Under the pieces are notes generated by a model, which saw only the letters and a list, made by a program, of their open reading frames with translations, was not told where the DNA came from and did no database searches. From NCBI GenBank assembly GCA_002698785.1, contig PAAG01000013.1:1-64000 (forward strand): a stretch of 64,000 bases of DNA. The letters are read 5' to 3'. The position numbers were made by a program, and so were the translations under genes. The stretch comes from Verrucomicrobiales bacterium (GTDB lineage Bacteria > Verrucomicrobiota > Verrucomicrobiia > Verrucomicrobiales > DEV007). This document shows, piece after piece, positions 13,449 through 37,336 of the stretch (positions within the stretch are counted from its first letter, which is position 1; the number at the start of each line of letters is the position of its first letter).

Positions 13449-15308
13449 TTAGCGTTTACCTTTTTCGAGCCAAACTGCAAGCAACGAGATATCGGCCGGT
13501 GTGATCCCACTGATCCTTCCTGCCTGACCCAATGTTGATGGACGGATAGACTGGAGCTTCAACTGTGCCTCCTTTTTTAAACCGGTGATCTCCGTATAGT
13601 TAATTTCGGGTGGCAGGGGCTTCTGATCGAGCCGCTTTGTTCTCTCCACCATATCTTCCTGACGCTGGATGTATCCCTCGTATTTGATATCAATTTCCAC
13701 CTGCTCCCAAATCGTCACGTGATGAGCTTCGCGGAGGTCCGCGTCATAATCGGTCCATGAGGACTCTGGACGCTTTAACCATTTTGCGAGAGAGCCCTCG
13801 GCAGTGTGCGTCGTCTCAAGAGTCTTCCGCAGCGTCGCGATCTCCTCGCGCTTCTTGTTAAGTTTTTGCAATGTTTCATTGCCGATCAAGCCGTGTGCTG
13901 AAGCTTTTTCTGCAAGACGAAGGTCGGCGTTGTCGTGCCGAAGCAGGAGCCGATGCTCCGCCCGGCTTGTGAACATACGATACGGTTCGTCGGTTCCTTT
14001 CGTGACAAGATCATCGATCATGACACCGATATACGCTTCATCTCTCCCGAGGATGAATTCTGGCTGACCAGCAACTTTTAATGCCGCGTTCGCACCCGCA
14101 ACGAGACCTTGACCTGCCGCTTCCTCATATCCTGATGTCCCATTGATCTGGCCAGCGAAATAGAGTCCACTCACCCGTTTTGTTTCGAGAGTTGAGAAGA
14201 GTTGTGTTGGGATGCAGTAATCGTATTCCACTGCATATCCCGGTCGAATGATCTCCGCATTCTCCAATCCGGGGATCGAATGGATGAAATCATACTGCAC
14301 TTCAAACGGCAACGAGGTGGAGACACCATTCACGTAATACTCATGTGTCTGTCGACCTTCCGGTTCGAGGAAGACCTGATGTCGGTCCTTGTCCGCAAAA
14401 CGCACCACCTTGTCCTCAATAGAAGGGCAGTAGCGCGGACCAATCCCCTCGATCATTCCCGCATACATCGGAGACTTATCGAGATTGGCGTTAATGATCT
14501 CGTGGGTGCTGGGGTTGGTATAGGTGATCCAGCAGGGCAATTGTTCCACGTGGAACATTTCCGCGGACCAATCATTCAGAGTAAAGATATCATCCTCACC
14601 TCTCGCGGTCTTCTCAGGCGAGAAGGAAAATGGCGGGGGTGGATCATCGCCCAATTGCGCTTCACACTGCGAGAAGTCGATCGACTTTCCATTCAGCCGA
14701 CACGGTGTGCCGGTTTTGAATCGCTCCACCTCGAAACCGAGTTCTTTTAAATCATCACTCAACGTAGAGGCGGAGTCCCCCATTCTCCCACCGGCCTGAT
14801 TCTGCATTCCCACATGCATGAGCCCACGCATGAATGTGCCCGTCGTGATCACTACAGATTGAGAGGCGATACGAACACCGAGGACAGTTTCAATTCCGAC
14901 AACCTGATCATTCTCGACAAGAATCTTTCGGACATTTCCCTGATGAAGATCGATGTTCTTCTCCCCCTCGATCAGCCACTTCATCCGAAACTGATACGCC
15001 TTCTTGTCGCACTGAGCTCGCGGCGCTCGAACACTCGGTCCCTTTTTCGCATTCAGAATTCGAAACTGAATGCCGGTGGCGTCAGTATTATGACCCATCG
15101 CCCCTCCGAGAGCATCGATCTCACGAACCATGTGACCTTTCCCCAAACCTCCGATAGCAGGGTTACACGACATTTGACCGATGGTGTCCAGGCTCTGGGT
15201 CAGCATTGCAACCTTTGCGCCTACACGGGCGGCAGCCAACGCAGCTTCCACACCTGCGTGACCTCCACCGACAATCAGTACATCATATTTTCTCGGGTAC
15301 TCGAACAT
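13449..15308 (-). CDS. mnmG: tRNA uridine-34 5-carboxymethylaminomethyl modification enzyme, FAD subunit
   Basis: MnmG (GidA) works with MnmE to install cmnm5/mnm5 at U34 of several tRNAs. The 619-residue protein starts with the FAD motif [20 protein letters not shown] and has [25 protein letters not shown], the cysteine motif CPSIEDKV and the C-terminal [12 protein letters not shown] region. Residues 251-256 (MFHVEQ) are encoded by a perfect parS site in a variable segment just before PCWITYTN. A second parS lies 16 nt upstream of the ATG. In many bacteria mnmG neighbours rsmG-parA-parB; here the next genes are a secreted protein, nadC and birA. Confidence 0.97.
14542..14557. promoter_or_regulatory. 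parS: parS chromosome-partition site inside mnmG
   Basis: The 16-bp perfect palindrome TGTTCCACGTGGAACA is the widespread ParB-binding consensus TGTTnCACGTGnAACA. It overlaps codons 251-256 of mnmG. Confidence 0.88.
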
Positions 15309-15323
15309 CTTAAAAATCCGAAA

Positions 15324-15339
15324 TGTTCCACGTGGAACA
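15324..15339. promoter_or_regulatory. parS: parS chromosome-partition site upstream of mnmG
   Basis: A second perfect copy of TGTTCCACGTGGAACA, 782 bp from the first, lies 16 nt ahead of the mnmG start in the intergenic region shared with the divergent pdh operon. Two identical 16-mers of this kind within 1 kb are very unlikely by chance. Confidence 0.88.
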
Positions 15340-15398
15340 TTGGCCTCAATCCAGCTTTAAAAATCATGAAATAACGGCACTTACCGTTTTCCTTGGGG

Positions 15399-15414
15399 GG
15401 TAGTTTACGCTACC
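15399..15414. promoter_or_regulatory. Short inverted repeat upstream of pdhA
   Basis: GGTAG-TTTACG-CTACC forms 5-bp inverted arms, 43 nt ahead of the pdhA ATG. It could be an operator for the pdh operon. The arms are short and support is weak. Confidence 0.25.
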
Positions 15415-15456
15415 GTCCGCTCCCTTCCAACTGAGGGAAATATATTTCTATTAGTG

Positions 15457-16545
15457 ATGGCTTCCTCTACTCAGAAACCGCAGTCCGAGAACTACGCAGA
15501 CGACCCGATTAACTCGTCCCTTTCGAAGGACGAAAAGATTTCCTTACTCCGTGACATGGTTCGAATCCGACGATTCGAACAGGAGGCACTTCGCCAATAC
15601 CAGCAGGCGAATGCAATCGGAGGTTTCCTCCATGTCTACATCGGACAGGAATCTGTCGCCGTTGGCACAATCTCCCTCCTTGGAGACGACGACCATGTCA
15701 TCACCGCATATCGCGATCATGGCCACGCTCTCGCTGTCGGCATGAACATGAACGAATGCATGGCAGAACTTTTCGGTAAAGCCACTGGCTGCTCCAAAGG
15801 AAAAGGCGGGTCGATGCACTACTTCGCCCCCGATAAGAACTACTGGGGCGGTCATGGAATCGTAGGAGGCCAAACACCACTCGGTGCAGGCATCGCATTC
15901 GCTCTAAAGTACAACGACAAGAAAGGCTGCTGCCTCTGCTATCTTGGCGACGGGGCGATCAATCAGGGCGCTTATCATGAAGCTCTCAACCTGGCCTCTC
16001 TCTGGGACCTCCCGGTGATCTACATCATCGAGAACAATGGATACTCAATGGGAACTTCTCAGGCCCGCTCTTCGGCACATCCGGAAGAAGGTCTCGCTGC
16101 CCGCGCAGAGGGATACAACATGGACTGGGAACAGATCAACGGCGTAAGCATCTACGAGATCCGCGCACGGGTGAAAGAGCACATCGATCGCGCCCACGAA
16201 AAGTCACGCCCCGCGATTCTCGAGATCATGACCTATCGACACAAAGGACATTCCATCGCCGATGCAAATGCCGAGAAGTATCGAACCAAGGAAGAGATCC
16301 AGGAATACATGGTGAAGCACGACCCGATCGAGTTCTTCAAAAAAGCACTCATCGACGAAGGCGTAATCACCGAAGACGATTACAAGACCCTGAACAAAGA
16401 AGCAGGAAAAGAAGCGGCCGACTCTGCAGAATTTGCCCACAACAGTCCCTTCCCCGATGAGTCTGAAATCTTCGACGACATCTATTGGGAAGTCGACAAC
16501 AACACCGAAGCCGGAAGAACCGGACGCCACTTTTTCCACGGCTGA
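15457..16545 (+). CDS. pdhA: Pyruvate dehydrogenase E1 component, alpha subunit
   Basis: With the beta subunit it decarboxylates pyruvate using thiamine diphosphate and transfers acetyl groups to E2. The 362-residue protein has RIRRFEQEALRQYQ, GQESVAVG, RDHGHALA, GKGGSMHYF and the TPP-binding GDGAINQG...NLASLWDLPVIYIIENN motif, with YRHKGHSIADANAEKYR carrying the phosphorylation-loop-like region. The ATG at 15457 is used; a GTG lies one codon earlier. It heads a pdhA-pdhB-pdhC-lpdA operon, the heterotetrameric E1 type found outside enterobacteria. Confidence 0.96.
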   Translation: MASSTQKPQSENYADDPINSSLSKDEKISLLRDMVRIRRFEQEALRQYQQANAIGGFLHVYIGQESVAVGTISLLGDDDHVITAYRDHGHALAVGMNMNECMAELFGKATGCSKGKGGSMHYFAPDKNYWGGHGIVGGQTPLGAGIAFALKYNDKKGCCLCYLGDGAINQGAYHEALNLASLWDLPVIYIIENNGYSMGTSQARSSAHPEEGLAARAEGYNMDWEQINGVSIYEIRARVKEHIDRAHEKSRPAILEIMTYRHKGHSIADANAEKYRTKEEIQEYMVKHDPIEFFKKALIDEGVITEDDYKTLNKEAGKEAADSAEFAHNSPFPDESEIFDDIYWEVDNNTEAGRTGRHFFHG

Positions 16546-35344: not shown

Positions 35345-37336
35345 ATGAGCGAACTCAATCAAGAAGCCCTCACGCAAGCCGCCACCGAGGCACGCGGCCT
35401 TGCCATCGATGCCGTCCACGCCTGCAGCTCCGGCCACTTGGGCCTTCCCCTCGGGACAGCTGAAATCGGTGCAGTGCTTTTCGGCGATACGATGCAGTAT
35501 AACCCCGACGAGCCAAAGTGGTTGAATCGCGACCGCTTCATCCTTTCCGCAGGTCACGGAAGCATGTTCCTCTATGGTTGGCTTCATCTCTCCGGATTCG
35601 ACGTCTCACTCGACGCAGTCAAAAATTTCCGCCAGTTCCACAGCGGCACACCAGGTCACCCCGAGTCTTTCGAAACGGTCGGTGTAGAAGCCACGACCGG
35701 CCCACTCGGTCAGGGAATCGGAAACGCTGTCGGCTATGCACTCTCCGCCAAGATGGCTGCCGGAAAATACAACACCGAAGAGCACACCATTTTCGACCAG
35801 ACCATCTTCTGCCTCGCTGGTGACGGATGTATGCAGGAAGGTATAGCTGCCGAAGCCATCGCTTTTGCAGGACACTTCGAGTTGGATAACCTCATTCTGA
35901 TCTACGACTCAAACGACGTCACTCTCGACGCCATGGCCGACAAAACACAGAGCTACGACGCCTGTGCACGTCTTGAGTCTTTCGGATGGGAGACATTCAA
36001 AATCGACGGTCACAACTTCGACGAAATCGCTGCGACCATCGAAAAGGCAAAAGCGAGCAAGAACGGCAAGCCCAAGCTCATCGAAGCCAAAACCATCATC
36101 GGAAAAGGAATTCCCGAAGTCGCAGGCACAGCTGCCGGTCACGGTGAAGGCGGAGCAAAGTTCGCCGAAGAAGCACGCAAAGGCCTCGGACTCCCAGAAG
36201 AGACATTCTATGTTTCCGAAGGTACACGCGAGTATTTCAGCGCCCACAAGGAAGCCCTCTTGAAAGGCTACAACGAATGGGAAGTATCCTTCCTCGCCTG
36301 GAAAGCCGCCAACCCCGAGCTCGCCAAAGAACTCGAAGACAGCGTCACCGGAGTTGTCCCTGATGACCTTCTCGGCTCCATTCCTGCCTTTGCCAGCGAC
36401 TACAAGAACGCAACCCGTGCCGCCGGTGGAGATGTCATCCAGGCCGTAGCCGACGCAGTGCCGAATCTCATTACAGGTAGTGCCGACCTTTTCGGTTCTA
36501 CCAAGAACTACATCAAATCCAGTGAGGACTTCTCTCCCGAGAATCCGACCGGACGCAACATCTGGTATGGAATCAGGGAGCATGCCATGGGAGCCATCTG
36601 CAACGGCCTCGCCTACGACGGGATCTTCCTCCCGACCGGTGCGACCTTCTGCGTTTTCGCCGACTACCTTCGTCCTTCCATTCGCCTCGCTGCGCTTTCC
36701 AGCCTCCGAGTCGGTTACATCTTCACACACGACTCAGTCGGAGTGGGAGAAGACGGCCCGACACACCAGCCTGTCGAAACCGTCAGCGGCCTTCGCGTGA
36801 TCCCTAACCTTGACGTCATTCGCCCTGCCGATCCGGAAGAAACGGCAGGTGCCTTTGCTGCCATGGTCGAGCGCAAGGACGGACCAACCGCCCTTATTCT
36901 CACTCGTCAGGGTGTCGCTACACTCAATGACATCCCCGTGAAAGAGCGCCGTGACGGTGCACTCAAAGGTGGCTACATCGCCAAGAAAGAATCCGGAGAA
37001 CTCACGACCATCCTCATCGGAACCGGTAGCGAACTCCAACATGCTATCGCTGCTGCTGAAGAACTCGGTGACGGAGTGCGCGTCGTATCCATGCCTTGCA
37101 TGGAGCGTTTCGACCGTCAGCCGGAAGAATATCGGGAGACTGTTCTCCCGACCTCATGCACCAAGCGTGTGGCCATCGAAGCTGGAGTCAGCGGACTCTG
37201 GTGGAAATATGTAGGAACAGAGGGCGCAGTGGTAGGGATCGATCGCTTCGGTATCAGTGCTCCAGGTGGAACTGTCATGAAAGAACTCGGCATGACGCCC
37301 GAGCACCTCATCGAGACGGTAAAAGCACTTGGGTGA
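35345..37336 (+). CDS. tkt: Transketolase
   Basis: A thiamine-diphosphate enzyme moving two-carbon units between sugar phosphates in the pentose phosphate pathway. The 663-residue protein has [25 protein letters not shown], the TPP motif [19 protein letters not shown] with [25 protein letters not shown] and [19 protein letters not shown]. All three domains are present. Two perfect-looking TPP/GDG elements and the C-terminal [12 protein letters not shown] confirm it. Its own strong terminator follows at 37370-37400. Confidence 0.97.

Follow-up and report, generated by a model that had tools for sequence, protein, structure and literature searches.

Chromosomal parS sites of ParABS systems, such as those of Pseudomonas, Bacillus (spo0J) and Caulobacter, are 16-bp palindromes found in small clusters, and in B. 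subtilis one parS is located inside spo0J. The sequence TGTTCCACGTGGAACA is given as parS of both Pseudomonas putida and P. aeruginosa, and a variant of it changed in one end base as parS of Myxococcus xanthus, in a table of PMC7022226. The nucleoid-occlusion system of Noc likewise combines a ParB-fold protein with a 16-bp palindrome (NBS). The Arg/Gly residues of parS-type proteins are described in PMC7383237 as strictly invariant in ParB and altered in Noc. In gut bacteria including Akkermansia, parS sites have already been reported (PMC10197239). A parS inside mnmG of Verrucomicrobia was not found in the literature searched, which covered few subscription papers. Here we describe a putative parS pair of this known kind at mnmG of a Verrucomicrobiales MAG; what is unusual, on comparative evidence, is that in most of the sampled families of the class its most conserved copy is locked within a gene's coding sequence.

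The window, that is, the whole stretch of DNA analysed, is 64,000 nt long. Its perfect matches to TGTTNCACGTGNAACA are two copies of the same palindrome, one within mnmG (coding copy) and one in the mnmG leader (leader copy), whose starts are 782 nt apart (Table 1). The spacing and the leader place are as the initial annotation had them; there, the coding copy figures just as the first of the pair. By arithmetic, about 0.0002 perfect matches to the 14 fixed bases are expected per 64 kb. When three mismatches are allowed, the sole further place in the 64 kb scanned is at 37258 (three mismatches), and the shuffle control of the window, made at the same threshold, gives a mean of 1.93. The initial annotation had also placed the leader copy 16 nt ahead of the mnmG ATG and in the region common to mnmG and the divergent pdhA: the upstream place holds, but the gap to the ATG (15308-15306, minus strand) counts 15 nt (15309-15323), and the copy indeed lies inside the divergent intergenic region, 117 nt from the likely pdhA ATG. 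Profiles of the E1a-E1b-E2-E3 run headed by this pdhA-like gene are PF00676, PF02779/PF02780, PF00198/PF00364/PF02817 and PF07992/PF02852. No promoter-like site was found in 15200-15560 by a sigma-70-type scan. The genome is that of a member of Verrucomicrobiota, the closest named MnmG matches being from Verrucomicrobiales MAGs, Rubritalea and Roseibacillus.

Table 1. Features around the two putative parS sites (window coordinates).
Feature	Position	Strand	Remarks
mnmG/gidA, tRNA uridine-5-carboxymethylaminomethyl(34) synthesis enzyme, 619 aa	13449..15308	-	TIGR00136 822 bits (cut-off 525); PF01134
parS1 (coding copy), putative	14542..14557	.	TGTTCCACGTGGAACA, within mnmG
mnmG codons 251-256, parS-encoded peptide	14541..14558	-	ATG TTC CAC GTG GAA CAA = M F H V E Q
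mnmG-pdhA divergent intergenic region	15309..15456	.	
parS2 (leader copy), putative	15324..15339	.	TGTTCCACGTGGAACA, 15 nt upstream of mnmG ATG
pdhA-like dehydrogenase E1 alpha	15457..16545	+	heads divergent E1a-E1b-E2-E3 run ending 20350

In the whole 7.0-Mb, 60-contig assembly, the other perfect matches are two TGTTTCACGTGAAACA, both on contig C13, and the reversed pattern used as a control gives no perfect match. At up to two mismatches, 13 places are found versus 20 for the reversed control, so that degenerate matches elsewhere in the assembly are no more than chance. Contig C13 (L008:1-10681, 10.7 kb) carries its own parA, parB and mnmG in an alphaproteobacterial-type order, rph-rdgB-hemW-parB-parA-rsmG-mnmG-mnmE-rho-maf-like, in which rph, rdgB, hemW, rsmG, mnmE, rho and maf are our assignments, made by eye from translations. 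Because of this gene content and order, together with a contamination estimate of 5% for the assembly, C13 is very probably an alphaproteobacterial contaminant and its two sites are taken as non-native. A count of four parS sites in the source genome was accordingly rejected, the two canonical ones sitting on this probable contaminant; the C13 pair inflates any naive parS count for the MAG. While rsmG, parA and parB follow mnmG on C13 (mnmE-mnmG-rsmG-parA-parB), they do not in our window; the N-terminus of the C13 MnmG likewise reads its parS in the FHV frame. A plasmid search gave partial matches in 33 records, all of them spanning less than 80% of the query.

The pair is widely kept within the family. 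The family set comprised 74 genomes including the source, nine of which gave no MnmG at E 1e-100, and 65 stretches around mnmG were taken from 64 other genomes with an MnmG match, sites being placed relative to the ATG. The perfect 16-mer occurs in 51 of the 74 genomes versus one with the reversed control; the remaining 23 lack it, in part owing to incomplete assemblies and in part to sites that hold one mismatch. With up to one mismatch, 53 of the 61 loci that extend far enough upstream have the leader site (perfect in 37), 61 of the 64 loci covering the coding place have the coding site (perfect in 34) and 53/61 have both (both perfect in 24), while the reversed pattern has no match in 352,126 positions of family loci. 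Loss of the leader site in close relatives retaining mnmG, the outcome that the initial annotation had set against its own proposal, was not borne out, as 53/61 family loci keep this site. Among the 43 leader and coding sites with one mismatch, the commonest form is that of M. xanthus (24 sites). Furthermore, seven family loci contain 17 extra sites: 15 downstream of mnmG, one elsewhere in mnmG and one farther upstream. Eight loci have no leader site, and six of them (L150, L151, L158, L159, L161 and L167) hold downstream sites instead; in L159, L161 and L167 the coding site is also absent and two sites are located 3′ of mnmG, and the other two leaderless loci, L177 and L178, have only the coding site, with one mismatch. 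In L150 (G018) and L151 (G025), the clusters are expanded around mnmG to six and three perfect copies, respectively, mostly downstream. There are also loci with changed palindromes. Both copies are altered near the palindrome centre in G049, G050 and G052, and one-base inner changes occur at both sites (CACATG, GTAG, CATGTG) in L164, L165 and L169 (genus g6) and in L303 (family f28), where ParB is present and its preference has possibly shifted.

How the coding copy is conserved was examined codon by codon in 60 of the 66 rows (65 stretches and the window), leaving out L162, L188, L189 and L190 (start inside the gene), L191 (in-frame stop) and L192 (no mnmG). Among 360 codon columns ranked for synonymous bias, the five FHVEQ codons rank 1, 2, 4, 5 and 6: CAA (57/60, first), GTG (47/48, second), GAA (57/57, fourth), TTC (59/60, fifth) and CAC (56/57, sixth). 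Ranking against other columns of the same mnmG genes is a partial control for relatedness. Since the FHVEQ codons top the columns in this way, selection on the coding copy is, as judged from codon usage, acting at the DNA level. The Q codon CAA runs one base past the 16-mer. Residue 254 is Met (ATG) in 9/60 rows, where the palindrome centre is broken, and the motif is missing in three further rows. The opposite reading, in which MnmG needs an FHVEQ protein motif, the coding copy is its by-product and the leader match is independent, is scarcely credible: FHVE(Q/H) is also conserved as a peptide and all 24 MnmG aligned from several phyla have Q256, but the synonymous positions are frozen, FHVEQ is found in 0/71 loci not named Verrucomicrobiota (the nearest being GHVEQ in L070), the motif borders a low-confidence loop, the L311 loop has two in-frame copies, and L159, L161 and L167 are without the motif but have two sites downstream of mnmG.

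The predicted MnmG structure has a mean pLDDT of 87.6, and residues 245-253 are among four stretches under 50. E. coli MnmG is about 17 residues shorter just before the parS-encoded place; because of this gap and the low pLDDT, the place is likely an insertion-tolerant loop. In L311, L312 and L315 (families f41, f44 and f12), two or three parS copies in the same frame occupy one MnmG loop. The L311 loop is translated as tandem FHVEH/FHVEQ, and one of the copies in L315 holds a mismatch. In L145, L159, L161 and L167, GGTTCCACGTGGAACG is found at +571 in mnmG, with two mismatches, an intact core and the same frame; a GFxVER motif may here have given rise to a parS.

The distribution was followed across the class in 29 loci from 30 genomes requested (G102 gave no MnmG), belonging to 25 families. 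These genomes were spread over families by choice and 29 of the 30 had a core match beforehand. The coding copy is present in 26 of the 29 (18 perfect), a proportion that is not an unbiased frequency because the genomes were chosen, nearly all with a parS core match; all 30 sites are in a single reading frame, and one or more genomes with the coding copy occur in 23 of the 25 families sampled. Of these chosen genomes, 13/28 have the leader copy no more than 500 nt upstream. Neither the loop nor the 500 nt upstream contains a site with up to one mismatch in L292, L307 and L072. In an unselected class sample, the parS core occurs anywhere in the genome in 321/384 and does not in 63/384. Seven deep-branching rows (L308-L313 and L315) have the loop site at +715, versus about +751 elsewhere, which we take as the same loop. 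Nine named Verrucomicrobiota loci, some of which duplicate family loci (L010, L011 and L014 are probably the same DNA), have the coding copy in seven and the leader copy in seven.

Outside the phylum the picture is different. The loop copy is found in 0/71 loci not named Verrucomicrobiota, whereas a site upstream of mnmG occurs in 10/69 loci of other phyla (e.g., L018, L019, L021, L022, L024, L028 and L058); their place just before mnmG is that of the leader copy in the window and of the parS on C13, and none of these loci of other phyla has the loop site. In the Desulfuromonadales loci L018 and L021, TGTTTCACGTGAAACA is found at +1583, in the 3′ part of mnmG, apparently a separate embedding of parS in this gene. 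A quick tree was made from 79 MnmG (29 chosen family rows, 28 of the 29 class rows, six named Verrucomicrobiota and 16 outgroups; L030, L044 and L314 were excluded by length), in which 23 of 76 inner branches are open and support is 88 for the branch that contains the class. On this tree, the coding-site label takes five changes versus a shuffled mean of 20.2, and none of 500 shuffles is as low. Five changes are compatible with one gain and four losses, and the coding copy is the older-looking element of the pair.

The leader copy behaves differently. In 28 family loci it is located at exactly -31. Identity among these is 96-100% from -30 to -16 and 29-68% in the upstream flank from -160 to -32, leaving the palindrome as an invariant island. 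Such a fixed place, which 28 of the 53 leader sites of the family keep at exactly 15 nt before the ATG despite scrambled flanks, would suit a copy serving mainly as a ParB-dependent operator by which mnmG and the divergent pdh genes are silenced or tuned, coupling segregation to tRNA modification and central metabolism. P. aeruginosa offers a precedent, where intergenic parS3/4 repress their neighbours and intragenic parS1/2 do not, according to a portion of PMC5521831. This reading is nonetheless unlikely: the leader copy is present in just 13/28 chosen class genomes, its distance varies beyond the nearest genera (e.g., -21 in L303 and -465 in L309), downstream sites replace it in six family loci, and B. 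subtilis genes beside parS are unaffected by loss of Spo0J, as an excerpt of PMC7022226 states. Because the leader copy is kept less than the coding copy in the chosen class genomes (13/28 versus 26/29) and downstream sites are present in six of the eight leaderless family loci, the arrangement looks more like a ParB cluster that tolerates changes of location than like an operator dedicated to mnmG. Regulation of mnmG and pdh by the leader copy, an interaction of partition and transcription suggested in the initial annotation, is possible, but as this copy turns over, it is probably not the conserved role.

The same palindrome could act as RNA if the mnmG leader folded into UGUUCC-ACGU-GGAACA with a U-rich tail, giving an attenuator or terminator. 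Indeed, a terminator-like match lies at 15341-15322 on the minus strand, one of three in the region versus 0.3 in shuffles, the hairpin is present in the predicted leader fold, and three T follow the 16-mer in 89-100% of the 28 loci at -31. Nevertheless, such a hairpin is highly improbable as the explanation, since its would-be free loop ACGT is invariant in 28/28, the predicted fold of the entire leader is no improvement on shuffles (z -0.47), a U tail is missing at the coding copy, and conservation inside mnmG and the downstream copies would be left unexplained.

A protein suited to a parS site is encoded. The native ParB, on contig C44 (L009:15609-16529), has 306 aa and scores 200.7 bits with TIGR00180, above its cut-off and below the Noc cut-off. 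Its R169/G197 stand at the places of R173/G201, the GERRWRA-type CTP motif and an ENLQR motif are present, and its nearest solved ParB is 7bnk. The parS-type Arg/Gly signature is found in 37/37 ParBs checked, one of them the contaminant's, and a PF02195 protein in 36/36 Verrucomicrobiota genomes searched (own, 5 and 30). A Noc-binding site was considered and rejected, as the sequence is not NBS and the specificity residues of C44 ParB are R/A/D/G, not Q/K/K/R of Noc. The 16-base palindrome is almost certainly a real ParB docking site.

The par genes themselves are elsewhere. Among ORFs of at least 120 aa neighbouring C44 parB, no parA was found; one neighbour is presumably glutaredoxin-like, judging by eye from its translation. 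A ParA candidate on C10 is an ATPase (PF13614, 181.8 bits), above no NCBIfam ParA equivalog cut-off shown, beside a gene that we take by eye from its translation to be secA. In the source genome, parB is about 4 kb from an end of C44 and mnmG 13 kb from an end of C16. The distance between parB and mnmG is 18 kb in G081, 124 kb in G166, about 1.5 Mb in G391 and about 2 Mb in Rubritalea profundi, and the two genes are on separate contigs in G003, G011, G024, G051 and the remaining class genomes with both placed. An unlinked parB as a general rule was rejected, because three of 30 class genomes (G081, G166 and G391) have both genes on one contig. On contig C1 of G081, where parB is at 101362 and mnmG at 119335-121164, the 18-kb proximity is possibly nearer to the ancestral order.

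Position relative to the replication origin was assessed by GC skew. Forty 20-kb samples were taken from the 4.16-Mb R. profundi scaffold (G074). Their skew rises above zero in the interval 1.64-1.68 Mb and drops below it in the interval 3.59-3.78 Mb; local exceptions are two samples preceding the first flip (0.42 and 1.365 Mb), which are positive, and one following it (1.89 Mb), which is slightly negative. The scaffold has parS at 1.732 Mb, dnaA at 3.547 Mb and parB at 3.952 Mb. In G051, the skew flips between about 378 and 420 kb and parS is at 438 kb; ahead of the flip, the 84-kb and 168-kb samples are weakly positive, and the 420-kb sample contains 3,582 N. The sites are within about 100 kb of the skew flip in both genomes, which supports a place of parS near the origin in R. 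profundi and G051. Source contig C16 is negative from 0 to 145 kb and roughly flat beyond, with no usable flip, and neither G024 nor G011 has a skew flip at the parS site. In the six genomes searched, dnaA is on a different contig from mnmG in five (that of the source on C41) and 1.8 Mb from mnmG in R. profundi; the gene after dnaA is presumably dnaN, named by eye from its translation. Because dnaA is near the skew flip opposite the parS-proximal one, it looks a poor origin marker in R. profundi. A part of PMC10197239 cautions that dnaA is not always an origin mark, and describes Hi-C on gut bacteria including Akkermansia in which origins were placed through parS clusters and skew.

The small parS cluster predicted by the initial annotation is borne out in that its DNA is kept in relatives, a parS-type ParB is encoded and a skew flip is nearby in two relatives. 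We estimate a probability of roughly 93% that both palindromes are chromosomal parS, forming a centromere cluster anchored to mnmG on which ParB acts as proposed. By analogy with ParABS biology, each 16-mer would be a nucleation site for native C44 ParB, which would then be loaded as a CTP-gated clamp and slide along mnmG and the flanking DNA; ParA would move the ParB complex, which would also recruit condensin, so that the mnmG region, which would be close to the origin in the source genome too, is segregated early. The centromere address would be mnmG whether parB is near or not. In the mnmG loop the DNA site would have written the peptide FHVEQ into the enzyme, while leader and occasional downstream copies would form a second tier of this cluster, one that moves more readily. 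Compared with chromosomal parS of the ParABS systems above, the 16-bp palindrome, the small cluster, ParB with Arg173/Gly201-type residues and the skew flip near the sites in two relatives are the same; different are the embedding of the most conserved copy in the mnmG loop and a parB that is not adjacent in relatives with a measured distance.

A broader history is somewhat favoured. According to it, parS was gained in the mnmG loop on the class stem and kept in most lineages, with parB tens of kilobases off or moved megabases away; the site forces FHVEQ on a housekeeping enzyme and marks the origin better than dnaA, lost leader sites are followed by new ones usually within about 2 kb of mnmG, and mnmG would be the fixed centromere address of the class. 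This fixed spot may descend from the order with parS beside mnmG seen in other phyla, kept wherever the par genes went.

With it, Verrucomicrobiota, for which little literature on chromosome segregation was found, would gain a defined centromere address, and mnmG parS would be a practical origin marker where dnaA may mislead. The leader and coding pair would provide a natural test of promoter-proximal versus intragenic parS in silencing of neighbours. The coding copy is probably a clear example of how a binding site in DNA has constrained the sequence of a protein over very long times.
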